From Dastarcus helophoroides (taxonomy: Eukaryota > Arthropoda > Insecta > Coleoptera > Bothrideridae): a stretch of DNA of 64,000 nt. Positions 2,960 to 61,911 of this stretch are shown one piece after another (position 1 is the stretch's first letter; every line of letters starts with the position of its first letter). The notes beneath the pieces are model-generated. The model saw only the letters and a list, made by a program, of their open reading frames with translations, had not been told where the DNA came from and did not search any database. The position numbers and the translations under genes were made by a program. The stretch covers positions 38,655,161-38,719,160 of the forward strand of contig CM053329.1 in assembly GCA_028583605.1 (NCBI GenBank), in the 5' to 3' direction.

Positions 2960-5900
2960 GCCCAAAGTTTGTAGTCTTCAGATCTTGAGTTCGAAAGTTT
3001 TTAGCCCTAATAGTTTTTGAGCAATTGTAAGAAAACGACGGACTGAACATTTTTTCAAATTTTTGTTTATTTTGCTTAGGTCGACGGACTTTAATAATTT
3101 TTTTTAAAAGAACTTGATAACTTAATATTGAATTGTTGTTTAATTAATTTTAACTTTACTGGTTTCCCAGCCTTGTCCAAAGATTTTACCCTGAATTATT
3201 ATTATTTAAGCCAAAAAAGTCATTTTTGAGTTGGAATTTGATAATCAATAACTCGTGAAATCAGATGGTGTAAATAGGGTTTTGAGAAGTGAAAAACATT
3301 CTCTTTTATTAACTGTTGATAAGAAAGTACCAGAAAAGTGATTGAAAATTAAGGTTCTTGAGTTTAAATTATTTTAGCCTCAACATTTTTTGACTAATCA
3401 TACAAAACCATGGGCTAAATATTTCTCCAAACTTTTGTTTATTTTTATAAGGTATACGGACTTCAAAGATTTTTTTTAGTGATTTTATCATTAAACTATT
3501 CTAAATTATTTAATTATCTTTAACTTAATTGGTTTCTTAGCCTTGTGCAATGATTTTTTGCTAAATTATTAAAATTTAAGCCAAAAAAGTCATTTTTGAG
3601 ATTGGTAATCAATAACTCCCGAAATCAGGATGGTATGGAAAATGCGAGTGGGGTTTTGAGAAGTGCAAAACATTCTCTTTTATGAACTGTTAACAAATAA
3701 GTACCAGAAAATTGATTGAGAAAGGAGACTGTTGAATTTAAATTTTTTAGCGTCAACCGTCTTTGATTAATCATACGAAAACCACGGGCTGAACATTTTT
3801 CAAAATTTTTGTTCGTTTTTGATAAGGTATACGAACTTAAAGAATTTTTTTTTTCAGTAATTTTATCATTAAACTATTCTAGAATATTTAATTATCTTAA
3901 ATTTGATTGGTTTCCCAGCCTTGTGCAAAAATTTTTCGCTGAAGTATCGTTATTTAAGCCAAAAAAGTCATTTTTGAGTTAGAATTTGATAATCAATAAC
4001 TCGTGAAATCAGTTGGTATGAAAAATGTGAGTAGGGCTTTGAGATGTGCAAAGCATTCTCTTTTTTACCTGTCGATAAAAAAGTACCAGAAAAGGTTCTT
4101 GAATTTAAATTATTTTAGCATCAACGTTTTTTGCCTAATCATACAAAACCGCGGGCTAAATATTTCTCCAAATTTTTCTTTATTTTTTATAAGGTATACG
4201 GATTTAAAAGATTTTTTTTGAGTGATTTTATCATTAAACTATTCTAAAGTATTTAATTATCTTTAATTTGATTGGTTTCCCAGCCTTGTGCAATGATTTT
4301 TCGGTGAACTATCATAATTTAAGTTAAAAAAGTCATTTTTAAGTTTGATAATCAACAACTCCTGAAATAAGATGGTATGGAAAATGTGAGTAGGGTTTTA
4401 AGAAGTGCAAAACATTCTCTTTTATTAACTATTAATAAATAAGTACCAGAAACATGATTGAAAAAGAGAATTTTGAATTAAAATTTTTTAGCCTTAACAG
4501 TCTTTGACTAATCATACGAAAACCACAGGCTAAATATTTCTCCAAATTTTTGTTTATTTTTTATAACGTATACGGACTTCGAAGATTTTTTTTAAGTAAT
4601 TTTATCATTAAAGTATTCTAAATTATTTAATTATTTTTAATTTGATTGGTATCTCGGCCTTGTGCAATGATTTTTCGCTGAATTATCATAATTTAAACCA
4701 AAAAAGTCATTTTTGAGTTTGGTAATAAATAACTCCTGAAATGAGATGGTATGGAAAATACCAGCAGGGTTTTGAGAAGTGCAAAACATTCTCTTTTATG
4801 AACTGTTAACAAATAAGTACCAGAAAATTAATTGAAAAACGATACTGTTGAATTTAAATTTATTTAGCCCCAACAGTCTCTAACTAATCATACGAAAACC
4901 ACGCGCTGAATATTTTTCCAAATTTTTGTTTATTTTTTATAGGGTATACGGACTTAAAAGATTTTTTTTTAGTGATTATGGCATTAGACTATTCTAGATT
5001 ATTTAATTATCTTTAATTTGATTGGTTTCCCAGACTTGTGCAATGATTTTTTGCTGAATTATCATAATTAAAGCCAAAAAAGTCATTTTTGAGTTTGGTA
5101 ATCAATAATGCCTGAAATGAGATGGTATGGAAAATGCGAGTAGGGTTTTGAGTAGTGCAAAGCATTCTTTTTTATTAACCGTTTATAAAAACTACCAGAA
5201 AATTGATTGAAAATGAGGGCTCTTGAATTTAAATTTTTTTAGCCTTAACAATCTTTTACTAAAATCACACGAAAACCACGTGCTGAACATTTTTCCAAAT
5301 TTTTGTTTATTTCCAATAGGGTCCACGGACTTTAATGATTTTTATTCAGTGGTCTTTTTATTGAAATATTTTAGCTTAATTATTTGTCTTTAATTTTATG
5401 GTTTTTCAGCCTTGTGCGATGATTTTTCCTCGAATTATCGTCATTTAAGCCAAAAAAGTCACTTTTAAGTTTGGTAATCAATACCTCGTGAAATGAGATG
5501 GTATAGAAAATGCAAGTAGGGTTTTGAGTAGTGCAAAGCATTCTCTTTTATTAACTGTTCATAAAAACTATCAGGAAATTGATGGAAAATGGGGATTCTT
5601 GAGTTTAAATTTATTTAGCCTCAACAGTCTTGACTAATCATACGAAAACCACGCGCTGAATATTTTTCCAAATTTTTGTTTATTTTTTATAGGGTATACG
5701 GACTTCAAAGGTTTTTTTTTAGTGATTATGGCACTGAACTATTCTAGATTATTTAATTATCTTTAATTTGATTGGTTTCCCAGACTTGTGCAATGATTTT
5801 TTGCTGAATTATCATAATTAAAGCCAAAAAAGTCATTTTTGAGTTTGGTAATCAATAATGCCTGAAATGAGATGGTATAGAAAATGCGAGTAGGGTTTTG

Positions 5901-7352
5901 AGTAGTGCAAAACATTCTCTTTTATTAACTGTTTATAAAAACTACCAGAAAATTGATTGAAAATGAGGGCTCTTGAATTTAAATTTTTTTAGCCTTAACA
6001 ATCTTTGATTAAATCACACGAAAACCAAGTGCTGAACATTTTTCCAAATTTTTGTTTATTTTCAATAGGGTCCACGGACTTCAATGATTTTTTTTCAGTG
6101 GTGTTTTATTAAAATATTTTAGCTTAATTATTTGTCTTTAATTTTAATGGTTTTTCAGCCTTATGCAATTATTTTTTCTCGAATTATCGTCATTTAAGCC
6201 AAAAAAGTCACTTTTAAGTTTGGTAATCAATACCTCGTGAAATGAGATGGTATGGAAATTGCAAGTAGGGTTTTGAGCGGTGCAAAGCATTGTCTTTTAT
6301 TAACTGTTTATAAAAACTACCAGAAAATTGACTGAAAATGAGGGCTCTTGAATTTAAATTTTTTTAGCCCTAACAATCTTTGACATCATACGAAAACCAC
6401 GGGCTGAATATTTTTCCAAATTTTTGTTTATTTTCAATAGGGTCCACGGACTACAATGATTTTTTTTCAGAGGTCTTTTTACTGAACTATTTTAGCTTAA
6501 TTAATTATCTTTAATTTTAATGACTTTCAACCTTGTACAATGATTTTTCCTTGAATTATCGTTATTTAAGCCAAAAAAGTCATTTTTGAGTTTGGTAATC
6601 AATAACTCGTGAAATGAGATGGTATGGAAAATGCAAGTAGGGTTTTGAGTAGTGCATAGCATTCTCTTTTATTAACTGTTCATAAAAACTATCAGGAAAT
6701 TGATGGAAAATGGGGGCTCTTGAATTTAAATTTATTTACCCTCAACAGTCTTGACTAATCATACAAAAACCTTGGGCTGAACATTTTTCCAAATTTTTGT
6801 TTATTTTTTATAAGGATACGGACTTCAAAGATTTTTTTTTAGTAATTTTATCATTAAACTATTCTAGATTACTTAATTATCTTTAATTTGATTGGTTTCC
6901 CAGTCTTGTGCAATGATTTTTCGCTGAATTATCATAATTTAAGGCAAAAAAGTAATTTTTGAGTTTGGTAATCAACAACTCCTGAAATGAGATGGTATGG
7001 AAAATGCGAGTAGGGTTTTGAGTAGTGCAAAGCAGTTTATTAACTGTTTATAAAGACTACCAGAAAATTGATTGAAAACGAGGGCTCTTGAATTTAAATT
7101 TTTTTAGCCTTAACTGTCTCTGACTAGTCATACGAAAACCACGGACTGAACATTTTTCCAAATGTTTGTTTATTTTCAATAGGGTCCACGGACTTCAATG
7201 ATTTTTTTTCTGTTGTCTTTTTATGAAAGTGTTTTAGATTAATTACTTATCTTTAATTTTAATGGTTTTCCAGCCTTGTGCAATGATTTTTCCTTGAATT
7301 ATCGTCATTTAAGCCAAAAAAGTCATTTTTGAGTGTGGTAATCAATGACACG
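2960..7352 (+). repeat. Satellite A, left block (about 370 bp monomer)
   Basis: Tandem array whose units carry the landmark GCCAAAAAAGTCATTTTT at about 3210, 3580, 3958, 5073, 5449, 5823, 6198, 6570 and 7313, with degenerate versions near 4323, 4698 and 6943; spacing is about 370-378 bp. Other landmarks are GGTATACGGACTT or GGTCCACGGACTT, AAAACCACGGGCTGAA, and CCTTGTGCAATGATTTTT. Short open frames inside are repeat artefacts. The first unit is degenerate, so the left edge is approximate. Confidence 0.93.
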
Positions 7353-11616: not shown

Positions 11617-14600
11617 ATTTTGAGAAGTGCAAAGCATTTTTTTTATTAACTTTTAATAAAAATGTACCAGAAAAGTGATTGAAAATGGAGGTCCTTGAAT
11701 TTAAATATTTTTTAGCCTCAACATTTTTTCATAACTATTAAACTTGATTAACGATAAAAACGCAACAAAATTTAAAAAATTTTTACAAAGTAAGGGTTAA
11801 AAATGTTAATTATTTCAACATTTTTTGACTAAGCATACGAAAACCAGGGGCTAAATATCTCCAAATTTTTGTTTGTTTTTCATAAGGTATACGGACTTTA
11901 ATTTTTTTTTTTCAGTAATTTTATTATTAAATTATTTTAGATTATTTAACTATCTTTAATTTAACTGATTTCTTAGCCTTGTGCAATTTTTTTTGCTGAT
12001 TTATCATAATTTAAGCCAAAAAAGTCATTTTAGATATTGATAATCAATAACTGGTAAAAGACATGGAAGGAAAAATGTGAGTATGGTTTTGAGAAGTGCA
12101 AAGCATTCTCTTTCATTGAATGTTACTAACAAGTACCAGCAAATTCTTGAATTCTTGAATTTAAATTTATTTAGCCTCAACAGTCTTTGACTAATCATAC
12201 GAAAACCACAGGCTAAATCTTTCTCCAAATTTTTGTTTATTTTTCATAAGGTATACGGACTTCGAAGATTTTTTTTCAGTGATTTTATCATTAAACTATT
12301 CTAGAATATTTGATTATCTTTAATTTGATTGATTTCTCAGCCTTGTGTAATGATTTTTCGCTAAGTTATCACAATTTAAGCCAAAAAAGTAATTTTTGAG
12401 TTTGGTTATCAATAACTCCTGAAATGAGGATGGTATGGAAAATGCAAGTAGGGTTTTAAGAAGTGCAAAACATTCTCTTTTATGAACTGTTAACAAATAA
12501 GTACCAGAAAATTGATTGAGAAAGGAGACTGTTAAATTTAAACTTTTTAGCCTCAACCGTCTGTGATTAATCATACGAAAACCACGGGCTGAACATTTTT
12601 CAAAATTTTTGTTCGTTTTTGATAAGGTATACGAACTTAAGCAAATTTTTTTTAGTAATTTTATCATTAAGCTATTCTAGATTATTTAATTATCTTTAAT
12701 TTGATTGGTTTCCCAGCCTTGTGCAAACATTTTTCGCTGAAGTATCGTTATTTAAGCCAAAAAAGTCATTTTTGAGTTAGAATTTGATGATTAATAACTC
12801 GTGAAATCAGTTGGTATGAAAAATGTGAGTAGGGTTTTGAGATGTGCAAAGCATTCTCTTTTTTACCTGTCGATAAAAAAGTACCAGAAAAGTGACTGAA
12901 AATGCAGGTTCTTGAATTTAAATTATTTTAGCCTCAACATTTTTTGCCTAATCAAACAAAACCGTGGGCTAAATATTTCTCCAAATTTTTCTTTATTTTT
13001 TATAAGGTATACGGACTGAAAAGATTTTTTTTTGGTGATTTTATCATTAAACTATTCTAAATTATTTAATTATCTTTAATTTGATTGGTTTCCCAGCCTT
13101 GTGCAATGTTTTTTTTGCTAAATTATTACAATTTAAGCCAAAAAAGTCATTTTTTTGTTTGGTAATCAATAACTCCTGAAATGAGATGGTATGGAAAACG
13201 CGAGTAGGGTTTTGAGTAGTACAAAGCATTTTCTTTTAATAACTGTTTTAAAAACTACTAGAAAATTGATTAAAAATGAGGGCTCTTAAATTTAATTTTT
13301 TTAGCCTTAACAGTCTTTGACTAATCATACGAAAACCACGGGCTGAACATTTTTCAAAATTTTTGTTTATTTTCAATAGGGTCCGCGGACTTTAATGATT
13401 TTATTTCAATGGTCTTTTTTTAAACTATTTTAGCCTAATTAATTATCTTTAATTTGAATGGTTTTCCAGCCTTGTGCAATGATTTTTTCTTTAATTATCG
13501 ATATTTAAGCCAAAAAAGTCGTTTTTGAGTTTGGTAAACAATAACTCGTAAAATGAAATGGTACGAAAAATGCTAGTAGGCTTTTGAGTAGTGCAAAGCA
13601 TCCTCTTTTATTAACTGTTTATAAAAACTACCAGAAAATTGATTGGAAATGAGGGCTCTTGAATATAATTTTTTTTAGCCTTAGCAGTCTTTGACTAATC
13701 ATACGAAAACCACGGGCTGAACATTTTTCCAAATTTTTGTTTATTTTTGATAAGGTCCACTGATAAAAATTACTTTAGTTATCTTATTACAAAATTATTT
13801 TAGCCTATTTAGCTATCTCTAACTTCATTGGTTTTCCAGACTTGTGCAATGATTTTTTTGCTGAATTATCGTTGTTTAAACCAAAAAAGTCATTTTTGAG
13901 TTTGGTAATCAATAACTTGTGAAATGAGATGGTACAGAATGTGCGAGTAGAGTTTTGAGAAGTAAAAAGTGTTCTGTTTTATTAATTCTACCAGAAAATT
14001 GATTAAAAATAGAGGTTCCTGAGTTTAAATTTCTTTAGCCTTAATAGTTTCCAAGTAATCATAAGAAAATTATTGACTGAATATTTTTCCAAATGTTTGT
14101 TAACTTTTGATAAGGCCTTCGGACTTCAATATTTTTTTTAGTGATTTTATTGTTAAACTGTTCTAGCTTATTTACTTATTATTAATTTGACTAGTATCTT
14201 ACCCCTGTAAAATGTTTTTCCGACGAATTATCGTTATTTAAAACAAAAAACTCATTTTTGAGTTTGGTAATTAATAATTCCTGAAATGAGATGGTATGGA
14301 AAATGCGAGTAAGGTTTTGAGCAGTGCAAAGCATTCTCTTATATTAACTGTTTATAAAAATTACCAGAAAATTGATTAAGAATGGGGGCTCTTGAATTTA
14401 AATTTATTTAGCCTCAACAGTCTTTGACTAATCGTACAAAAACCACGGGCTTAACATTTTTCAAAATTTTTGTTTAATTTTGATAGGGTATACAGATGTT
14501 AGTGATTTTTTTCATTAATCCTATCATTGGAATATTCTAGCATATTTAATTGTCTTTAATTTGACTAGTTTTCCAGCCTTGTGCAATGATTTTTTGCTGA

Positions 14601-14902
14601 ATTATCGTTGTTTAAACCAAAAAGTCATTTTTGAGTTTGGTAACCAATAACTTGAGAAATGAGATGGTACAGATTGTGGGAGTAAAGTTTTGAGAAGTAA
14701 AAAGTGTTCTGTTTTACTAATTCTACCAGAAAATTGATTGAAAAGAGAGGTTCCTGAGTTTAAATTTCTTTAGCCTTAATAGTTTCTAAGTAATCATAAG
14801 AAAATTATTGACTGAATATTTTTCCAAATGTTTGTTAACTTTTGATAAGGTCTTCGGACTTAAACATTTTTATTACTGATTTTATTAATAAATTGTTCTA
14901 GC

Positions 14903-14947
<45 letters not shown>

Positions 14948-16835: not shown

Positions 16836-17160
16836 AGAAGTTTTGAATATTATGGAGGAATTTCAAATTATAAGTTATTTCGTCATTTAAGTTTTAATTT
16901 GAAAAAAAAAATAGTTACGAAAGAAATATTTTTTTTAAATGAAATGTCAAATTGAAATTTAAATTTTTTTCAATATTTTTTAAATTTCTTCTTAACCAAA
17001 AGATTTTGGCAATATTTCTTTCAAAATGCCAGATATTTTTCTGGAAATTTCGACTTCACAACGCAAATATTCATCAACAATCCATGGGCGTTTTCTCCGT
17101 AGAAGTTAGGGAAGCACAACTTCATTTGCAGATGGAACAAATTACCACTTTAAAAAAAAA
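16836..17160. other. A/T-rich DNA, no gene seen
   Basis: Low-complexity AAATTT-type sequence leads up to the first MITE copy. Nothing else is visible. Confidence 0.5.
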
Positions 17161-17412
17161 AATTGAAACACAAATCTTGTCCCCTAAGACCAGGAAAGAT
17201 TAAAAAACACAACGAACGTTGCTCTAATGCATTTCGACAGCCAAGCTATCATCTTCAGGGATATACTCTCTCAGTATCTCTCTGAAGATGATAACTTGGC
17301 TGTCCAAACGCGTTAGAGCAACCTTTGTTGTGTTTTTAATCTTTTTTTGGCTTCAGGGGACAAGATTTGTATTTCAATTTTTAAAGATAACCAAGGACCA
17401 GTCCGCTCCACC
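17161..17412. mobile_element. Foldback MITE copy 1
   Basis: Inverted arms carry the family words CTTGTCCCCT, GATTAAAAAACACAAC, GTTGCTCTAA, GACAGCCAAGCTATCATC and their complements, around a short centre near 17260-17280. The right end reads ACCAAGGACCAGTCCGCTCC; the left end lacks this outermost part and starts at AATTGAAACACAAATCTTG. No transposase is present, so it is non-autonomous. The class is not known. Confidence 0.85.
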
Positions 17413-18445: not shown

Positions 18446-18592
18446 TTGGTGGAACGGATTGGTCCTTGGCTATCTTCAAAAATTGAAATACAGAACTTGT
18501 CCCTTGAAACCGAGAAAGATTAAAAAACACAACAAAGGATGCTCCCTTATTGTGTTTTTTAATTTTTCTTGGTTTCTAAGGACAAGTTCTGT
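18446..18592. mobile_element. Foldback MITE copy 2 (internally deleted)
   Basis: Starts GGTGGAACGGATTGGTCC, runs through AACTTGTCCC and GATTAAAAAACACAACAAAG, and turns back almost at once into TGTGTTTTTTAATTTTTCTT and GGACAAGTTCT. The central TCGACAGCCAAGCT segment is missing, and the right end is truncated before GGACCAGTCC. Confidence 0.82.
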
Positions 18593-19690
18593 TAATCTCA
18601 AAATTTTAAATTTAAACTCTTTAAATCTTCAAGGAGAACAATGGGAAATTCAAAACTTTTTTCCAACATCTTTAGACTTTGATGTTATAAATTTAAACTC
18701 TTTAAATCTTTATAGTGAATAATGAGAAATTCAAATCATTTTTCCCACCATTATTTCTGGAATTTTATCTTCAATAACAAATATTTAATTCAAAAGTGGC
18801 AAAATATGTTCCAATTTGAAATTCTGGTTAGAAAATCGAGATTTCAAAATCAAGTTAAATTCTTGAAGTTTTTTTATACTATTTTTCTAATTTGATTTAA
18901 AGAAAGTATAAAAAATTTGACGTCAAAGATTAAAGTTTTTACAATAATCTAAAATTTGAGGACAAACCATATTTAAAAAACTGGAAATTTGGAAAAAATT
19001 GGAAACAGTGAAATTTAAAATTTTAGAAGTGCCAATATTTTCAAATAAAATCAAAATTTTTAAATCAGATTTAAAAATAAAATGAAATTTCAAAAATTTT
19101 GAATCAAAAAAAAGATAATCAAAATGGCAAAATTTCGAAAAAAATTGAAATCTCGAAAAATGCCGATATTTCGAAAGATAACATCTTTCAAGAAAAACTA
19201 ATTTAAATTTGACAAAGAATTGAATCGTTTTGTAAAAAGTGAAAATATTTGCAAAAAAAGCGAAAATATATTTAAAAAAAACTTCGAAAGTTAACATTTT
19301 CCAAAAAAGTAGAATTTTGCAAAAAAGCTCCAATTTTTCAAATAAGATGAAAATCGACAAAAAAAATCAAATTTTCTTTTAAAAACTGCAATTTTCATAA
19401 GTCAAAATTTTGAAAAAGTTAAAAACATATCAAAAAGTCGAAAATTCGAGAATCGAAATTTTTAAAGTCGACATTTATAAAAAACCAAGATTTTGAAAAA
19501 AGCGAAATTTTTTAAAAACAGAAATTTATAACAAAGTTAACATTTCGAGAAAAAGCCAAAATATTGAAAAAAATCAAAATTTTCAAAAGAAACTCAATTA
19601 TGAAGTGACCATTTTAAAGAAATTTAAAATTTTAAATGTATTTAAATTTTTAAAAATGATATCGAAGTGTTTTTTCTTAGCTTGCAATTT
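18593..19690. repeat. A/T-rich low-complexity DNA of the TCGAAATTTT type
   Basis: Degenerate short words (CGAAATTTT, AAAAAGTCGAAA) without a fixed period. A short direct repeat with TTTAAACTCTTTAAATCTT lies near 18608 and 18690. The 145-residue minus-strand open frame here is almost only Phe, Leu, Lys, Ile and Ser and is not credible as a gene. Confidence 0.6.
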
Positions 19691-40925: not shown

Positions 40926-41072
40926 AATAAAAAATGAAATACAGATCTTGTCCCCTGAAACCAAGAAAGATTAAAAACACAACAAAGGTTGCTCTAACCT
41001 TGGTTTCAGGGGACAAGAGTTGTATTTCATTTAAGATAACCAGGGACCAATCCGTTCCACCAAAAAAAAAAC
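40926..41072. mobile_element. Foldback MITE copy 3 (short)
   Basis: TGAAATACAGATCTTGTCCC, GATTAAAAACACAACAAAGG and GCTCTAACC turn directly into CTTGGTTTCAGGGGACAAG and end CCAATCCGTTCCACC. The second arm lacks the TGTTGTGTTTTTTAATC part, so the copy is deleted in the middle. Confidence 0.85.
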
Positions 41073-45430: not shown

Positions 45431-45892
45431 AATGTTGACTCTTTTCGCAAAATTTCGACTCTTTTTTTTTGGTTTACGAGTGTGGTCTCTGCTCATGATT
45501 TTGTGAAAAATGCGGAAGAAAGTCAATATTTTGACTTTTGCTTGAAATTTTGCGTGAAGCGTAAAAACAACTAAATTATACTGAAAAAGGTCGCAAAGAA
45601 GTCTAAATTTGAATTTTGAAGTACAAATTTTGGAAATGTAGTTAAAGTGGAAAATTTTCGGAAAATATCGAGATTTTGAAAAAAAAGTCGAAATTGCGAC
45701 TTTCTTTGCGAAAAATCGGTTCTTTTTGCAACTCTAGGCGAAATTTCGACTTTTCGCAAAATGTTGACTCTGCGAAATTTTAACTTTTGTATCAAGATCA
45801 TGTGTAGAGGGTATAACTTTTGCAAAAGCGGCAAACATTTCACTAAAAGTCGAGATTTTGTGAAAAATGTCGAAATTGTTCGAAGAATTAAA

Positions 45893-45993
45893 ATACAGCT
45901 TTTAACTTGTCCCCTGAAACCAAGAAAGATTAAAAAACACAACAAAGGTTGCTCTAACGCGTTTCGACAGCCAAGCTGTCATCTTCAGAAAGA
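45893..45993. mobile_element. Foldback MITE copy 4 (one arm only)
   Basis: TTAACTTGTCCCCTGAAACC, GATTAAAAAACACAACAAAG and GGTTGCTCTAACGCGTTTCG are followed by GACAGCCAAGCTGTCATC and TTCAGA, then ordinary repeat DNA. The complementary arm is absent. Confidence 0.85.
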
Positions 45994-53764: not shown

Positions 53765-54620
53765 GAAATTCGAAATTTTGAAAAAAGTCTGGATTTGAAG
53801 AAGCAATCGAAAATCGGAAAAAAATGTTGAAATTATCAATAAAGTAGAGATTTTCAAAAACAGACCGATATTTTTGAAAAAATTTAAATGATTGAAATTT
53901 CAAAATTTTCAAAAAAGGTCGAAATTTTCTTAAAGTCCAACCCTTTGAATATTCGAAGTCGACATTTGAAAAAATTTACAATTTTAAAAAACATCGAAAA
54001 TCAAGAAAAGTCAAAAATCTAAAAAAAGTGCAAATTCTGGGAAAGGAAGTCCTAATTTTGAAATAAAATCATATTTTTTTTAAGTTAGATCCAAAAAAAA
54101 ATCACTTTTTCAAAAAACTCAATACGACGAAGCTTCAAAAAATTGGAAGCTTAAAAACTGAAATTTTTATAAGAAGTTGCCATTATTGAAGTTTAATTAA
54201 AAAAAAAGAGCAGCACATTTAAACAGAAGCAGGAGGTTTTTATTAAATGTCGAATTTTTGAAATCAAGATTTTAAGAAAAGTCGAAATTTTGATGCAACT
54301 AGAATGCAGCCCAGAGTACAAATTCATGTAGCCCTCCAGGCGTGTAAGGTGAATCATAGTTAGGTGAACTACCAACAGTTGAAACACTGCCACCTAGCGA
54401 AGAGGTTGCTCTCTAGGAAAAAGTTACCAGAAGACAAGGATTCTAATGCACAGGCCAATAGGTTTGAACATTTATTAGATTCGAAGTTTGGAAACCAAAG
54501 ACCGGTTTCGATCTTGTTAGATCTCGTCAGTTTGGTATATCCAACTCGAATGCTAACAAATGTTCCAAGTAAGTACTATAGAATTCACGGATGTCAAGCG
54601 TGTGACTCTTAGTACTACCA
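53765..54620 (+). repeat. Left copy of a roughly 0.85 kb duplicated block
   Basis: AAGTCTGGATTTGAAGAAGC, TCCAACCCTTTGAATATTCG and AAGAGCAGCA.ATTTAAACAG, up to the first satellite E unit, recur almost base for base at 57150-57990. The two copies flank the hairpin array. Confidence 0.9.
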
Positions 54621-55035
54621 CCTATTGGTCCATAGAGAAACTATGGCCAAAGCCAACAATGTCGTATGCAAGTAGAATGCAACCTAGACTACAAATTCAT
54701 GCAGCCCTCCAGGCATGTATAGTGAATCATAGGTAGCTGAACTACCAACAGTTGAAACACTGCCACCTAGCGAAGCGGTTGCTCTCTAGGAAAAAGTTCC
54801 CAGAAGACAAGGATTCTAATGCACAGACCAATAGGTTTAAACATTTATTAAATTTGAAGTTTGAAAACCAAATGTGCATTAGAATCCTTGTCTTCTGGGA
54901 ATTTTCCTAGAAACCAACCGCTTCGCTAGGCGGCAGTGTTTCAACTGTTGGTAGTTTAGCTACCTATGATTCACTATACACGCCGCCTGGAGGGCTGCAT
55001 GAATTTTTAGTCTAGGTTGCATTCTACTTGCATAT
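54290..55035. repeat. Satellite E, left cluster with inverted end
   Basis: One full 377-bp unit (54298-54668, landmarks GCAGCCCTCCAGGC, AGTTGAAACACTGCCACC, ACCGGTTTCGATCTTG, GACTCTTAGTACTACC) is followed by half a unit. At about 54870 this turns back into the reverse complement (TGTGCATTAGAATCCTTGTC to GAGGGCTGCATGAATT). Confidence 0.93.
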
Positions 55036-55486
55036 GAAAATTGCATATTTTTGTAATTTCAGATTTTTCTCAAAATTTCAAATTTTTCCCTAAAATTTTG
55101 TATTGTACCAAATTTCCAAATTTTATTTTTATAAATTTTAGGCTTTTCTCTAAAGATGAAAATTTTCTTAGCATTTGAAGCGTAATTTTAATCTTCAAAC
55201 GTAATCTTTGGTTTTACAAACATTTTTTAAACTTCGCATTTGTCAAAATATGCACTATTTTGAAAATCTTAACTTTTTAGTGAAAATTTTAACTTTTTAT
55301 GAAGCTTTCGATATCTTTCAAAATTTCGATTATTAAAAATTTTGACATTTTCCCAAAATTCCTTTGTTCTTCAAAATTTCGATTTTTTGAAAATTTGAAA
55401 TTATTTGAAAACTTGTTTATCAAAAAAAAACCAATTCTTTTGAACATTCTGATTTTATTTTGACAGTCCTTGACTGGTGCTTGGTT
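55036..55486. other. A/T-rich low-complexity DNA, no gene seen
   Basis: TTTCAAATTTTT-type words only, leading to TGACTGGTGCTTGGTTATCT, the start of a degenerate MITE arm. Confidence 0.55.
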
Positions 55487-56808
55487 ATCTTCTAAAATTG
55501 AAATACAAAACTTGTCCCCTGAAACCAAAAAAGATTGAAAAATACAACAAAGGTTGCTCTAACGCGAAGATGATAGCTTGGCTGTCGAAAAACACATTAG
55601 AGCAACCTTCGTTGTGTTTTTTAATCTTTATTGGTTTCAGTGGAAAATGTAAGACTTGTCCACTGAAACCAAGAAAGATTAAAAAACACAATAAAGGTTG
55701 CTCTAACGCGAAGATGATAGCTTGGCTGTCGAAACACGTTAGAGCTACCTTTGTTTTGTGTTTTTTAATCTTTATTGGTTTCAGTGGAAAATGTAAGACT
55801 TGTCCACTGAAACCAAGAAAGATTAAAAAACACAACAAAGGTTGCTCTAACGCGAAGATGATAGCTTGGCTGTCGAAACACATTAGAGCAACCTTCGTTG
55901 TGTTTTTTAATCTTTATTGGTTTCAGTGGAAAATGTAAGACTTGTCTACTGAAACCAAGAAAGATTGAAAAACACAACAAAGGTTGCTCTAACGCGAAGA
56001 TGATAGCTTGGCTGTCGAAAAACACATTAGAGCAACCTTCGTTGTGTTTTTTAATCTTTATTGGTTTCAGTGAAAAATGTAAGACTTGTCCACTGAAACC
56101 AAGAAAGATTAAAAAACACAATAAAGGTTGCTCTAACGCGAAGATGATAGCTTGGCTGTCGAAACACGTTAGAGCTACCTTTGTTTTGTGTTTTTTAATC
56201 TTTATTGGTTTCAGTGGAAAATATAAGACTTGTCCACTGAAACCAAGAAAGATTAAAAAACACAACAAAGGTTGCTCTAACGCGAAGATGATAGCTTGGC
56301 TGTCGAAACACATTAGAGCAACCTTCGTTGTGTTTTTTAATCTTTATTGGTTTCAGTGGAAAATGTAAGACTTGTCCACTGAAACCAAAAAAGATTGAAA
56401 AACACAACAAAGGTTGCTCTAACGCGAAGATGATAGCTTGGCTGTCGAAAAACACATTAGAGCAACCTTTGTTTTGTATTTTTTAATCTTTATTGGTTTC
56501 AGTGGAAAATATAAGACTTGTCCACTGAAACCAAGAAAGATTAAAAAACACAACAAAGGTTGCTCTAACGCGAAGATGATAGCTTGGCTGTCGAAACACA
56601 TTAGAGCAACCTTCGTTGTGTTTTTTAATCTTTATTGGTTTCAGTGGAAAATGTAAGACTTGTCCACTGAAACCAAGAAAGATTAAAAAACACAACAAAG
56701 GTTGCTCTAACGCGAAGATGATAGCTTGGCTGTCGAAAAACACATTAGAGCAACCTTCGTTGTGTTTTTTAATCTTTATTGGTTTCAGTGGAAAATGTAA
56801 GACTTGAG
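55487..56808. repeat. Tandem array of nine ~144 bp hairpin units derived from the MITE
   Basis: AAGACTTGTCCACTG-type unit starts lie at 55651, 55795, 55937, 56081, 56225, 56367, 56513 and 56655; the first unit begins near 55508 and the last ends at 56799. Spacing is 142-146 bp. Each unit is itself palindromic: ACTGAAACCAAGAAAGATT, ACACAACAAAGGTTGCTC, GATGATAGCTTGGCTGTC, then the complements AGAGCAACCTTCGTTGTG and TTTAATCTTTATTGG. Two variants (ACATTAGAGCAACCTTCG, ACGTTAGAGCTACCTTTG) occur in a three-unit order in units 1-3 and 4-6. Long open frames on both strands are products of this symmetry. Confidence 0.96.
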
Positions 56809-57031
56809 ACGGACTGGTCCTTGGTTATCTTCAAAAATTGAAATACAAAACTTGGCCACTGAAACCAAGAAAGATTAAAAAACACAACATAGGTTGCTCT
56901 AACGCGAAGATGATAGCTTGGCTGTCGAAAAACACATTAGAGCAACCTTCGTTGTGTTTTTTTAATGTTTCTTGGTTTCAGTGGTCAAGTTTTGTATTTC
57001 AATTTTTGAAGATAACCAAGGACCAGTCCGT
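56809..57031. mobile_element. Foldback MITE copy 5, complete
   Basis: The 223-bp element starts ACGGACTGGTCCTTGG and ends with its complement CCAAGGACCAGTCCGT. The arms are near-perfect inverted repeats around GATGATAGCTTGGCTGTC. Its interior matches the 144-bp units to the left, which makes it the best reference copy in the window and the likely edge of the element from which the array expanded. Confidence 0.92.
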
Positions 57032-57149
57032 TCCACTAGAGTTAGTAACAATCCAAAAATTTACAAATTCGATATTTTCTCAAGACTTTGCTTTTTTTTT
57101 AAATTCCGACTTTTTTGAAGTTTAACATTTTTTTAAATCTAGTCTGACT

Positions 57150-57990
57150 TCTTGAAAATTTCGAAATTTTGAAAAAAGTCTGGATTTGAAGAAGCAATCG
57201 AAAATTTGAAAAAAATGTTGAAATTATCAATAAAGTTGAGATTTTCAACAACAGACCGATATTTTCGAAAAAATTTAAATGATTGAAATTTCAAAATTTT
57301 CAAAAAAGGTCGAAATTTTCTAAAAGTCCAACCCTTTGAATATTCGAAGTCGACATTTGAAAAAAATTACAATTTTAAAAAACATCGAAAATCAAGAAAA
57401 GTCAAAAATCTAAAAAAAGTGCAAATTCTGGGAAAGGAAGTCCTAATTTTGAAATAAAATCGTTCTTTTTTAAGTTTGATTAAAAAAAATTCACTCTTTC
57501 AAAAATCTCAATACGACGAAGCTTCAAAAAATTGGAAGCTTAAAAACTGAAATTTTTATAAGAAGTTGCAATTATTGAAGTTTAATTTAAAAAAAGAGCA
57601 GCAGATTTAAACAGAAGCAGGAGGTTTTTATTAAATATCGAATTTTTAAAGTCAAGATTTTAAGAAAAGTCGAAATTTTGATGCAACTAGAATGCAGCCC
57701 AGCGTACAAATTCATGTAGCCCTCCAGGCGTGTAAGGTGAATCATAGTTAGCTGAACTACCAACAGTTGAAACACTGCCACCTAGCGAAGAGGTTGCTCT
57801 CTAGGAAAAAGTTACCAGAAGACAAGGATTCTAATGCACAGGCCAATAGGTTTGAACATTTATTAGATTCGAAGTTTGGAAACCAAAGACCGGTTTCGAT
57901 CTTGTTAGATCTCGTCAGTTTGGTATATCCAACTCGAATGCTAACAAATGTTCCGACAAGTAAGTACTAAAGAATTCACGGACGTCAAGC
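57150..57990 (+). repeat. Right copy of the 0.85 kb duplicated block
   Basis: Matches 53765-54620 with few substitutions, then continues into satellite E. The boundary on the left is in A/T-rich DNA and is approximate. Confidence 0.9.
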
Positions 57991-59590
57991 GTGTGACTCT
58001 TAGTACTACCACCTATTGGTCCATAGAGAAACTATGGCCAAAGCCAACAATGTCGTATGCAAGTAGAATGCAACCTAGACTACAAATTCATGCAGCTCTC
58101 CAGGCATGTATAGTGAATCATAGGTAGCTGAACTACCAACAGTTGAAACACTGCCACCTAGCAAAGCGGTTGCTCTCTAGGAAAAAGTTACCAGAAGACA
58201 AGGATTCTAATGCACAGGCCAATAGGTTTGAATATTTATTAGATTCGAAGTTTGGAAACCAAAGACCGGTTTCGATCTTGTTAGATCTCGTCAGTTTGGT
58301 ATATCCAACTCGAATGCTAACAAATGTTCCGACAAGTTAGTACTAAAGAATTCACGGACGTCAAGCGTGTGACTCTTAGTACTACCACCTATTGGTCCAT
58401 AGAGAAACTATGGCCAAAGCCAACAATGTCGTATGCAAGTAGAATGCAACCTAGACTACAAATTCATGCAGCCCTCCAGGCATGTACAGTGAATCATAGG
58501 TAGCTGAACTACCAACAGTTGAAACACTGCCACCTTAGCGAAGCGGTTGCTCTCTAGGAAAAAGTTCCCAGAAGACAAGGATTCTAATGCACAGACCAAT
58601 AGGTTTGAATATTTATTAGATTCGAAGTTTGGAAACCAAAGACCGGTTTCGATCTTGTTAGATCTCGTCAGTTTGGTATATCCAACTCGAATGCTAACAA
58701 ATGTTTTGACAAGTAAGTACTAAAACATTCACAGGCGTCAAGCGAGTGACTCTTTAGTACTACCACCTATTGGTCCATAGAAAAACTATGGCCAAAGCCA
58801 ACAATGTCGTATGCAAGTAGAATGCAACCTAGACTACAAATTCATGCAGCCCTCCAGGCATGTATAGTGAATCATAGGTAGCTGAATTACCAACAGTTGA
58901 AACACTGCCACCTAGCGAAGCGGTTGCTCTCTAGGAAAAAGTTACCAGAAGACAATGATTCTAATGCACAGGCCAATAGGTTTGAACATTTATTAGATTC
59001 GAAGTTTGGAAACCAAAGACCGGTTTCGATCTTGTTAGATCTGGTCAGAAAAGGTTCCCAGAAGACAAGGATTCTAATGCACAGGCCAATAAGTGTGAAT
59101 ATTTATTAGATTCGAAGTTTGGAAACCAAAGACCGGTTTCGATCTTGTTAGATCTCGTCAGTTTGGTATATCCAACTCGAATGCTAACAAATGTTCCGAC
59201 AAGTAAGTACTAAAGAATTCATGGACCTCAAGCGTGTGACTCTTAGTACTACCACCTATTGGTCCATAGAGAAACTATGGCCAAAGCCAACAATGTCATA
59301 TGCAAGTAGAATGCAACCTAGACTACAAATTCATGCAGCCCTCCAGGCATGTATAGTGAATCATAGGTAGCTGAACTACCAACCGTTGAAACACTGCCAC
59401 CTAGCGAAGCGGTTGCTCTCTAGGAAAAAGTTCCCAGAAGACAAGGATTCTAATGCACAGACCAATAGGTTTGAACATTTATAAGATTGGAAACCAAATA
59501 CCGTTTTCGATCGAGACCTAACAAGATCGAAACCGGTATTTGGTTTCCCAACTTCGAATCTGATAAATGTTCAAACCTATTGGTCTGTGT
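57680..59590. repeat. Satellite E, main array (377 bp monomer)
   Basis: AAGTAGAATGCAACC landmarks lie at 58060, 58437, 58815 and 59304, with a variant at 57683. Spacing is 377-378 bp except the last, which holds an internal junction near 59045 where a unit restarts at GGTTCCCAGAAGACAAGG. The array ends by turning back on itself near 59510 (AACAAGATCGAAACCGG). Each unit gives the same 60-70 codon frame (KHCHLAKRLLSRKKLPEDKD...), shared because units are recent copies. Confidence 0.95.
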
Positions 59591-59800: not shown

Positions 59801-61361
59801 CTAATATTAACGTATTGTCAAAAATCTTAACTCGAATTTGGACACCGAAACTTGACACATTGACAAACATCAGAGCGTACTTTTAGCGCCCCTCTAGGCC
59901 CCCCTAGAGGTCGAATTTCCAAAAATCTTTTCTAGGTGTGCGTCTATATTTCAAAAGGAAACTCTGTGCAAAATTTCGAGCTCCTAGAGCGGCTTTGGCT
60001 GTGCGTTGATATACCTTTGAAAGGGGTACAAAATGACATTTAGTTTTAAACTATTTCCAACCTTATGTTAAAATTTGAAGACTTTTGGAATGATTTCTAT
60101 CGTTAGTGTCTTCAGTGACTGGCCTAAAACGCGTTCGCTATGTCTCAGCTGTCTCTGGTGCGCTGTGTACTGGTCTACCGTAATTACCGAATTGCGAGTA
60201 AATAAACCTGTGCGAGCTCCTGAAGTGTATATCTCGATTTAAGTGAAATAAAGATAAAACTGCGATTTAGCTGATTAAAGTTTTCATTCTCGACTGCGTG
60301 AGACAAAGGGGGGCAATGGCTCCATTTTGCCCGCTAATATAATTTTTAATTGGTTCAGTAAAAAGGAAAAGCTGCATTATGTGGTAAAAAAACGAATATT
60401 AGAGGTTTAAGCATACATATATCAGGTATATTACGAGTAGTACATAATTTAATATAAAATTATTTCACTATTTTTCTTAAGTTCATTGAAATTCAATGCA
60501 GACACATTCTATTGACCCAATATATTTTGTAAACAACACAAATATTCTGACAAAGAATTTAAATAATAACGCAATCGCACTTTGTAACAATATCTTTACC
60601 AAATAAGTATTCTCTAAATTAACATATGCGCTCTTTATTATAGAATTTATGGTCGAAAGCTGCTATATATTTAATTATAAGGTAGAAACTGATACGTTGG
60701 CAAGGTTAAGTGTAAGATATAATTAATTTGTACCTACGGCTGCCATTTGATACATGCCTTGGCTGGGCTTTAGAGTAAATAAAATTATCTCTGTTGTTAT
60801 TTTGATAAAATCATACTCTTGTGTTTAAGTAACTCCTGATTTATAGTAGCAATATGTCAGAATGGTATCTCTTCAAAAACAAAGCCGATTCGATCCTCGA
60901 CTCGCTTGCGAACGCACCTAGCACGTAATCCTCGGACCAATTTAAATTTATTTCGCAGAGGAATCCTCCGTTAGATTTGACGATATGTTTTACGGGCTAC
61001 AAGGTAGTCTTTTTGGCTATAAAATTAAAAGATGGTCTTGCCGGGTTGTAAACCAAGTTCCCACGTTTGAGGCGGCGCCATCCGAGCTTGTGTCAACATA
61101 AGCTGCAGCCCGTTTATACGACAAACGTGAAGCTGAAACGATGAAACCACCAAAGACCAAGAGATGCCTACATTCCGATCTTATTCTTTGATAACTTTGG
61201 CCATTCAATTAAAAGCGACTCTATTCTTTTCTTGATAATTGTAGCAATTAAAACGCTCTACGTGCCCGCCGTGGTCTCTACTACCTTTGGAACTGAGCAA
61301 CTTCAGAACGAGATGATAACGTTAAACGAATGGATAAATTTGGTGCATTTGGTTATATTAA
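59801..61361. other. Unique region, no gene recognised
   Basis: At 59891-59910 there is a GC-rich hairpin (CCTCTAGG/CCTAGAGG). The next 150 bp, including GTGCAAAATTTCGAGCTCCT and GGCTGTGCGTTGATATAC, resembles a phrase often found in dispersed insect retroelements (recollection, not searched). 60.2-60.4 kb and 60.85-61.2 kb are GC-balanced and could hold exons or regulatory DNA, but I found no convincing splice-linked frame. A 63-codon minus-strand frame at 61208 to 61017 is unassigned. Confidence 0.5.
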
Positions 61362-61630
61362 AAAATTGAAACACAAATATTGTCCCCTGAAACCAAGAAA
61401 GATTAAAAAACACAACAAAGGTTGCTCTAACGCGTTTCGATAGCGAAGCTTCAGAGAGACAAGATTTGTATTTTAATTTTTGGATGGATAAATTGATATA
61501 AAATCTTGGCCCCTGAAGCCAAGAAAAACTAAAAAATACAATACTTGCCATGAGGAATTTCGATAGCCAAGCTATCATCTTCAGAGAAATACTGTTTTGA
61601 AGATAACCAGGACCAGTCCGGTCCACAAAA
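61362..61630. mobile_element. Foldback MITE copy 6 (diverged)
   Basis: TTGAAACACAAATATTGTCC, GATTAAAAAACACAACAAAG and GCTCTAACGCGTTTCGA are followed by a second, rearranged arm (CTTGGCCCCTGAAGCC) and the end GACCAGTCCGGTCCAC. Confidence 0.85.
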
Positions 61631-61680
61631 CGAATGGATGAATCTGTTAAAAATTTTCGTATTCTTCATCAAGACACTAA

Positions 61681-61911
61681 ATTGAAACACAGAACTTGTC
61701 CCCTGAAACCAAGAAAAATTAAAAAACACAACAAAGGTTGCTCTAACGCGTTTCGACAGCCAAGCTGTCATCTTCAGAGAGAAAACTCACGTCACGTCGA
61801 AACGCGTTAGAGCAACCTTTGTTGTGTTTTTTAATTTTTCTTGGTTTCAGGGGACAAGTTCTGTGTTTCAATTTTTGAAGATAACCAAGGACCAGTCCGT
61901 TCCATCAAAAA
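61681..61911. mobile_element. Foldback MITE copy 7 with flanking direct repeat
   Basis: Arms AACTTGTCCCCTGAAACC, GTTGCTCTAACGCGTTTCGA and complements surround AGCTGTCATCTTCAGAGAG. It ends AAGGACCAGTCCGTTCCATC. AGACACTAAA is present on both sides (61672-61681 and 61911-61920), suggesting a target duplication of 9-10 bp. The left end lacks the outer GGACTGGTCC part. Confidence 0.88.

Follow-up and report, generated by a model that had tools for sequence, protein, structure and literature searches.

A nine-unit hairpin array in the beetle Dastarcus helophoroides, probably grown by local tandem expansion of a foldback element

Introduction

How does a single hairpin element turn into a row of hairpins, and what kind of element was it? 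The question is raised by a locus of Dastarcus helophoroides at which nine hairpin units lie head to tail beside one complete foldback element (the solo copy), within the 64,000-nt stretch of DNA analysed here (the window). The original prediction saw in this locus the interior of a MITE in the course of conversion to a satellite. We conclude that the array is real and that its structure was mostly described correctly, whereas the MITE label is probably mistaken. The explanation that we favour, with somewhat better than even confidence, is that the hairpin core of a short, non-coding foldback element was expanded locally in tandem, and that the family of this element probably moves into new sites by way of an RNA copy.

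The window is AT-rich (GC 0.32) and abounds in tandem repeats (149 TRF rows, many of them overlapping). It contains a reverse-transcriptase fragment on the minus strand (1296–1829, Pfam RVT_1), the best listed relative of which, from the leaf beetle Gonioctena, shows 60% identity over 86%. TTAGG is the insect-type telomere repeat, and TRF reports degenerate CCTAA (TTAGG) repeats at positions 82–248. Between 41781 and 49620, several arrays are built on a base period of 18 bp (approximately AAATTTCGCGAAGAGTC), with higher-order periods of 55–304 bp.

Results

Nine hairpin units are repeated head to tail

The array occupies positions 55510–56801 on the plus strand and comprises nine units of 142–146 bp each, starting at 55510, 55654, 55798, 55940, 56084, 56228, 56370, 56516 and 56658. 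Units 1 to 8 measure 144, 144, 142, 144, 144, 142, 146 and 142 bp, respectively, and the length of unit 9 was put at 144 bp (56658–56801) from its alignment. TRF detected a period of 144 bp with 9.0 copies (94%) and a period of 430 bp with 3.0 copies (97%). In a BLAST comparison, the solo copy matched all nine units with identities of 89.7–94.4%, and the units correspond to positions ~31 or 33 to 176 of its 223-nt hairpin. These results bear out the earlier claim of nine head-to-tail units of ~144 bp taken from the interior of a foldback. A 24-nt loop motif occurs ten times without a mismatch (in the nine units and the solo copy) and, with up to 3 mismatches, 14 times in the whole window, where 0 occurrences are expected; the array is thus not due to chance.

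Each unit had also been claimed to fold singly, and all nine are predicted to do so on the plus strand, each as a hairpin with a short linker (-68.8 to -75.8 kcal/mol). Four of the nine units were compared with shuffled sequences on the plus strand, one of them also on the minus strand (200 shuffles each), and no shuffle was equally stable (z -12.9 to -17.8). A transcript of the array would form a row of stable hairpins and might thus be a source of small RNAs; the array itself appears to have no selected function. Its head-to-tail monomers have changed in concert as in a satellite (nine units, three of them identical, with trimer blocks), at an abundance of a single 1.3-kb array within the 64-kb window.

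Protein searches with translations of the repeats found no relatives (no candidate in one search and 2276 in another, none of these at E <= 10), and exact DNA patterns had no match in viral and prokaryote collections, neither of which is made of insect genomes. Rfam gave no match at gathering level anywhere in the window. At loose thresholds, the array and the dispersed copies of the element resemble many miRNA-precursor models, all below cut-off among the matches listed (150 of 207 in one of the searches), and we take these to be generic matches to long hairpins.

Trimer blocks record the growth of the array

There is no difference among units 3, 6 and 8, a single differing site between units 2 and 5, and five such sites between units 1 and 4. 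The mean difference between units is 3.3 at a lag of 3, compared with 6.2, 5.3, 6.8, 4.0 and 4.0 at lags 1, 2, 4, 5 and 6. Permutation of the unit order gave p 0.03 for this lag-3 likeness, and the case for trimers therefore leans on shared markers more than on the permutation test. These data agree with the proposal that the array grew in steps of three units. Unit alignment places a first full trimer at 55510–55939 (units 1–3) and a second at 55940–56369 (units 4–6), so that the predicted three-unit pattern stands for these two blocks; the third block is not whole. Here unit 7 is a mosaic, with a front like unit 1 (A) and an end like unit 5 (B), and the shared markers suggest that positions 56370–56657 hold a reduced trimer made of an A/B fusion (unit 7) and unit 8. 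As judged from the aligned units, the simplest order would be ABC, ABC, a third trimer cut to (A/B)C, and then unit 9.

In the left arm, the motif CCCCTG is kept by unit 1 and by three dispersed copies (c17, c40 and c61b, described below) and is absent from units 2–9 and from the solo copy. Because unit 1 alone among the units keeps this motif, we regard this edge unit as the least homogenised, which is what unequal exchange would be expected to produce.

Array and solo copy were joined by a rearrangement

Comparison with the solo arm and BLAST identified the left outer arm of the founder element (GACTGGTGCTTGG...), without its first ACG, at 55472–55509 on the plus strand. From 55472 the arm reads GACTGGTGC, and it differs from the solo left arm by 2 mismatches over 43 nt (55472–55514). 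On the right, the array lacks an outer arm of its own and ends 5 nt into a tenth unit. These nucleotides (ACTTG) together with an AG filler make up a junction at 56802–56808, after which a second left end, ACGGACTGGTCC, begins at 56809 within the structure. The prediction that the outer ends remain single at the edges does not hold where array and solo copy meet. This edge structure (partial tenth unit, AG and second left end) argues that array and solo copy were joined by a rearrangement and not by a clean insertion. No direct repeats flank the solo copy or the structure as a whole (p 0.92 and 1.0).

The solo copy (56809–57037, plus strand) is a complete foldback, as judged from its arms, its fold and comparison of its ends with those of other copies. 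Its hairpin (56809–57031) has arms of 74 nt that are 97% complementary, with 75 nt between them and 1 mismatch in the outer 54 pairs, and is followed, on the right only, by TCCACT. Compared with shuffles, its fold gave a z of -24.9. The left tip lacks the T-run and the GGTGGA that are present, slightly varied, in the dispersed copies c17, c18, c40 and c61b. An insertion of the solo copy into the array was considered, given that TCCACT at its right resembles a unit; however, TCCACT is also the element's own end (GGTGGAACGG in other copies) and hence is no evidence for such an insertion. The hairpin array is flanked by a 1.1-kb direct duplication (53766–54872 and 57157–58263, 96.4% identical). 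This duplication was rejected as a source of an empty site, the array falling outside both of its copies.

The joint sequence between units is TTTCAGTGG / AAAATGTAAG / ACTTG, with AAAATATAAG in two of the nine joints and GTGA for GTGG in one. Since all nine carry the same odd linker, AAAATG(or A)TAAG-ACTTG, one founding duplication must have seeded the array. The linker resembles a stretch of the left arm, GAAATACAAAACTTG, with several transitions. We therefore interpret the joint as a connection from position 176 back to ~31, probably with little or no microhomology, although descent of the linker from position 31 is not certain, given that several sites differ from the left arm.

Four of six dispersed copies carry long flanking direct repeats

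BLAST found six dispersed copies of the family in the window, five of them on the minus strand. End comparison delimited c17 (17158–17412), which has the longest hairpin, and c18 (18448–18609, plus strand), in which the hairpin tip is deleted and the end was placed at ~18592. The other four copies are c40 (40929–41061), with one arm mostly deleted; c45 (45883–45990), a one-arm fragment; c61a (61342–61626), which is rearranged; and c61b (61679–61906). Direct repeats of 12–16 nt flank these four of the six copies, measuring 13 nt at c40 (12/13 letters matching), 15 nt at c45 (15/15), 16 nt at c61a (15/16) and 12 nt at c61b (12/12), while the flanks of c17 and c18 show no significant direct repeat. 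The ends were set by eye, and the sample is small (six copies in one window). Against a Markov null, the flanking repeats gave a combined p of 1.8e-8. Thirty cross-paired flank controls scored at most 10, compared with 15 for c45, 13 for c61a and 12 for c61b; c40, at 10, ties with the best of them. Against sites sampled from the actual window, with its many repeats, the single values were less striking, at 0.029 for c45, 0.048 for c61b and 0.078 for c40 (c61a not included). The surroundings of c45 hold similar AT-rich background repeats.

The usual ends of the family are TTTTGGTGGAACGG and TTTCAATTT, neither of which is the inverted repeat of the other. Copies c17, c40 and c61b terminate in ~CAATTT with no inverted arm, c18 terminates earlier, and c45 has a single arm; an inverted arm on both sides is found fully in the solo copy and partly in c61a. 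Variable-length T-runs precede GGTGGAACGG in c17, c18, c40 and c61b, and T-runs are frequent throughout the window. Exact matches to the end pattern TTTTGRTGGAACGG number three, all within the foldback family, while with up to 3 mismatches 12 were found against 13.2 expected, which is not above chance. The sequence CTCTGAAG/TTCTGAAG coincides, exactly or to within a few bases, with a junction or an end in c45, in c61a (twice) and in c61b. This sequence may be the end of a monomer, in which case the foldback may be an inverted dimer of that monomer. The two arms of a copy differ less from each other than from the arms of other copies in a test that left out c40, c45, c61a and units 6 and 8: 0.122 versus 0.153 for four copies (permutation 0.083), 0.107 versus 0.137 for five copies (0.017), and 0.092 versus 0.109 for eleven sequences (0.003), the units among the latter being non-independent. 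At best, these values hint at arm-to-arm copying within a copy.

Because direct repeats of 12–16 nt occur at four of six copies and the usual ends are unlike one another, RNA-mediated insertion of the foldback family appears likelier than cut-and-paste movement, and the MITE label is not supported. Some observations count against RNA insertion, namely that c40 only ties with the best cross-pair, that c17 and c18 show nothing significant, that neither the solo copy nor the structure as a whole is flanked by direct repeats, and that the solo copy (and partly c61a) has the both-sided inverted arm of a DNA foldback. A MITE or foldback of the DNA-transposon type, moved by a transposase in trans and with its interior turned into a tandem array as in Tetris or Xstir, would account for the near-perfect hairpin of the solo copy with both outer arms, and an equal outcome has been published for MITE-like elements. 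A MITE, however, needs flanking repeats of one fixed short length, whereas those found here vary in length; three copies end without an inverted arm, and a scan of four translations, a weak test, revealed no transposase. We consider such an origin possible but rather unlikely.

A hammerhead-like core in the family and a hammerhead motif nearby

The arm tip of c61b fits a minimal type I hammerhead, with stem I (CUCU/AGAG), CUGAAGA, an unpaired U, stem II (GACAGC-UUG-GCUGUC), GAAA and CGCGU-U. The pattern scan also found a hammerhead-like core in c45, where stem I is CUUU/AGAG. In 60 simulations, the pattern, which was written after the motif had been noticed, would turn up 0.03 times per window. 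The core resembles the minimal hammerheads of Penelope-type elements. An Rfam search of c61b and c17 gave no hammerhead match. The core is disrupted in array units and solo copy alike, where it reads GCGAAGA.

Unexpectedly, the pattern scan also matched a 376-bp tandem repeat beside the array (57681–59297 and 54293–54872) five times, with motif starts on the minus strand at 57924, 58300, 58677, 59167 and 54536. The motif consists of stem I (ACCAAA/UUUGGU), CUGACGA, GAAA and a GUC site. It matched the Rfam model HH9 with 37.3 bits, below the curated 52, at an E of 1e-8 for 81 bases and of 7e-6 for 55,400 bases. The 43-nt core is unchanged at five of six places and has 6 changes at the sixth. 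When the four full copies were aligned, 33 of 378 columns were variable, none of them in the 71-nt extended motif. The longest invariant block (95 columns) contains the motif, the next longest being 31 columns, and invariant 71-column stretches make up 8% of all such stretches, every one inside the 95-column block. With a GC content of 0.41–0.43, the 376-bp repeat is, on its sequence, a candidate insect retrozyme, and its hammerhead motif may matter more than the hairpin array. A piece of the repeat is inverted at 54873–55037, where it abuts the direct copies at 54293–54872 and makes a large hairpin. Two arrays of a similar 373/374-bp unit lie at 2998–7346 and 11815–14913; the strict hammerhead pattern gave no match there.

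A bolder history would link these features. A hammerhead-headed retroposon could have formed inverted dimers by snap-back copying at the monomer end, yielding a MITE-like foldback; a loop deletion would then have dropped the ribozyme core, and the dead hairpin would have become a satellite. We put this forward only tentatively and think it unlikely. If true, MITE-like foldbacks and hairpin satellites could come from ribozyme retroelements with no need of a DNA transposase, and the link would offer a testable origin for some MITE-like foldbacks.

An array made at the RNA level seems improbable. By this route, proposed for retrozymes, multimeric or circular RNA copies of a hammerhead-bearing monomer are made, and reverse transcription lays down the array. 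The hammerhead-like core in c61b and c45, the long flanking repeats of the dispersed copies and the motif-bearing tandem repeat next door would all suit it, but the core is lost in the array units (GCGAAGA for CUGAAGA), Rfam finds no hammerhead in c61b or c17, and the trimer blocks and fused unit suggest later exchange at the DNA level. An assembly error that stacked copies of reads into an array is very improbable, for although units 3, 6 and 8 share one sequence and the AG junction is out of the ordinary, the other units have private differences and a mosaic such as unit 7 is unexpected from read stacking.

Discussion

Local expansion of a retroposon-like foldback, the explanation that we prefer, would have begun with a non-homologous backward jump from ~176 to ~31 of the 223-nt hairpin, for which slippage during replication or a template switch at the hairpin could be responsible. 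The array would later have grown by unequal exchange or conversion between units, evening out its middle and sparing unit 1, in which the older state of the family survived. The complete copy may have come to lie next to the array through a second jump or through a deletion (position 46 to 1, with the AG filler). At this one small locus, the element, the array, the trimer step and the fused unit are all visible. The locus also gives reason for caution, as a hairpin with inverted ends is not necessarily a DNA transposon.

As described in PMC7229834, metazoan non-LTR retrozymes are short, low-GC tandem repeats of 150–450 bp with type I hammerheads and long target duplications. The 376-bp repeat fits this description well; in the 144-bp units, unlike retrozymes, the hammerhead core is not intact and the hairpin runs throughout (PMC7229834). 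Hammerheads have been reported from an insect satellite in cave crickets (PMC2837043), and for Penelope-like elements PMC11167929 serves as a source for comparison.

For hairpin or inverted-dimer retroposons or satellites, there was no obvious prior case among the literature matches listed, in a search whose coverage mostly excludes subscription journals. Other parallels come from elements tied to DNA transposons. The foldback element Tetris of Drosophila virilis yields repeats, TIR-220, that grow into satellite-like arrays, for which changes in copy number by unequal crossing-over have been proposed (PMC4079207). The array described here is likewise a satellite-like row of foldback-derived repeats. 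TIR-220, according to the same account, sits within a DNA transposon's terminal inverted repeats and forms kb-size arrays at many places (PMC4079207), whereas the unit in our case is the entire hairpin core, a single array is known, and the element appears to have been retroposed. Xstir and miDNA4 of Xenopus are similar in that MITE interiors gave rise to tandem repeats, among them composites of a MITE with an array; both are classed as DNA-transposon MITEs (PMC12628747, PMC9659126), a class that the target duplications of our dispersed copies do not fit. In coral CMITE arrays, too, small inverted-repeat elements stand in tandem, but whole elements, akin to piggyBac-like transposons, are repeated there, unlike the core-only array at our locus (PMC2872659). 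Going by these accounts, conversion of a transposon to a satellite is a route already described, and the array is ordinary in kind (PMC4079207, PMC12628747, PMC9659126). Our locus adds an insect example in which the trimer history is readable and the element is probably a retroposon and not a DNA transposon.
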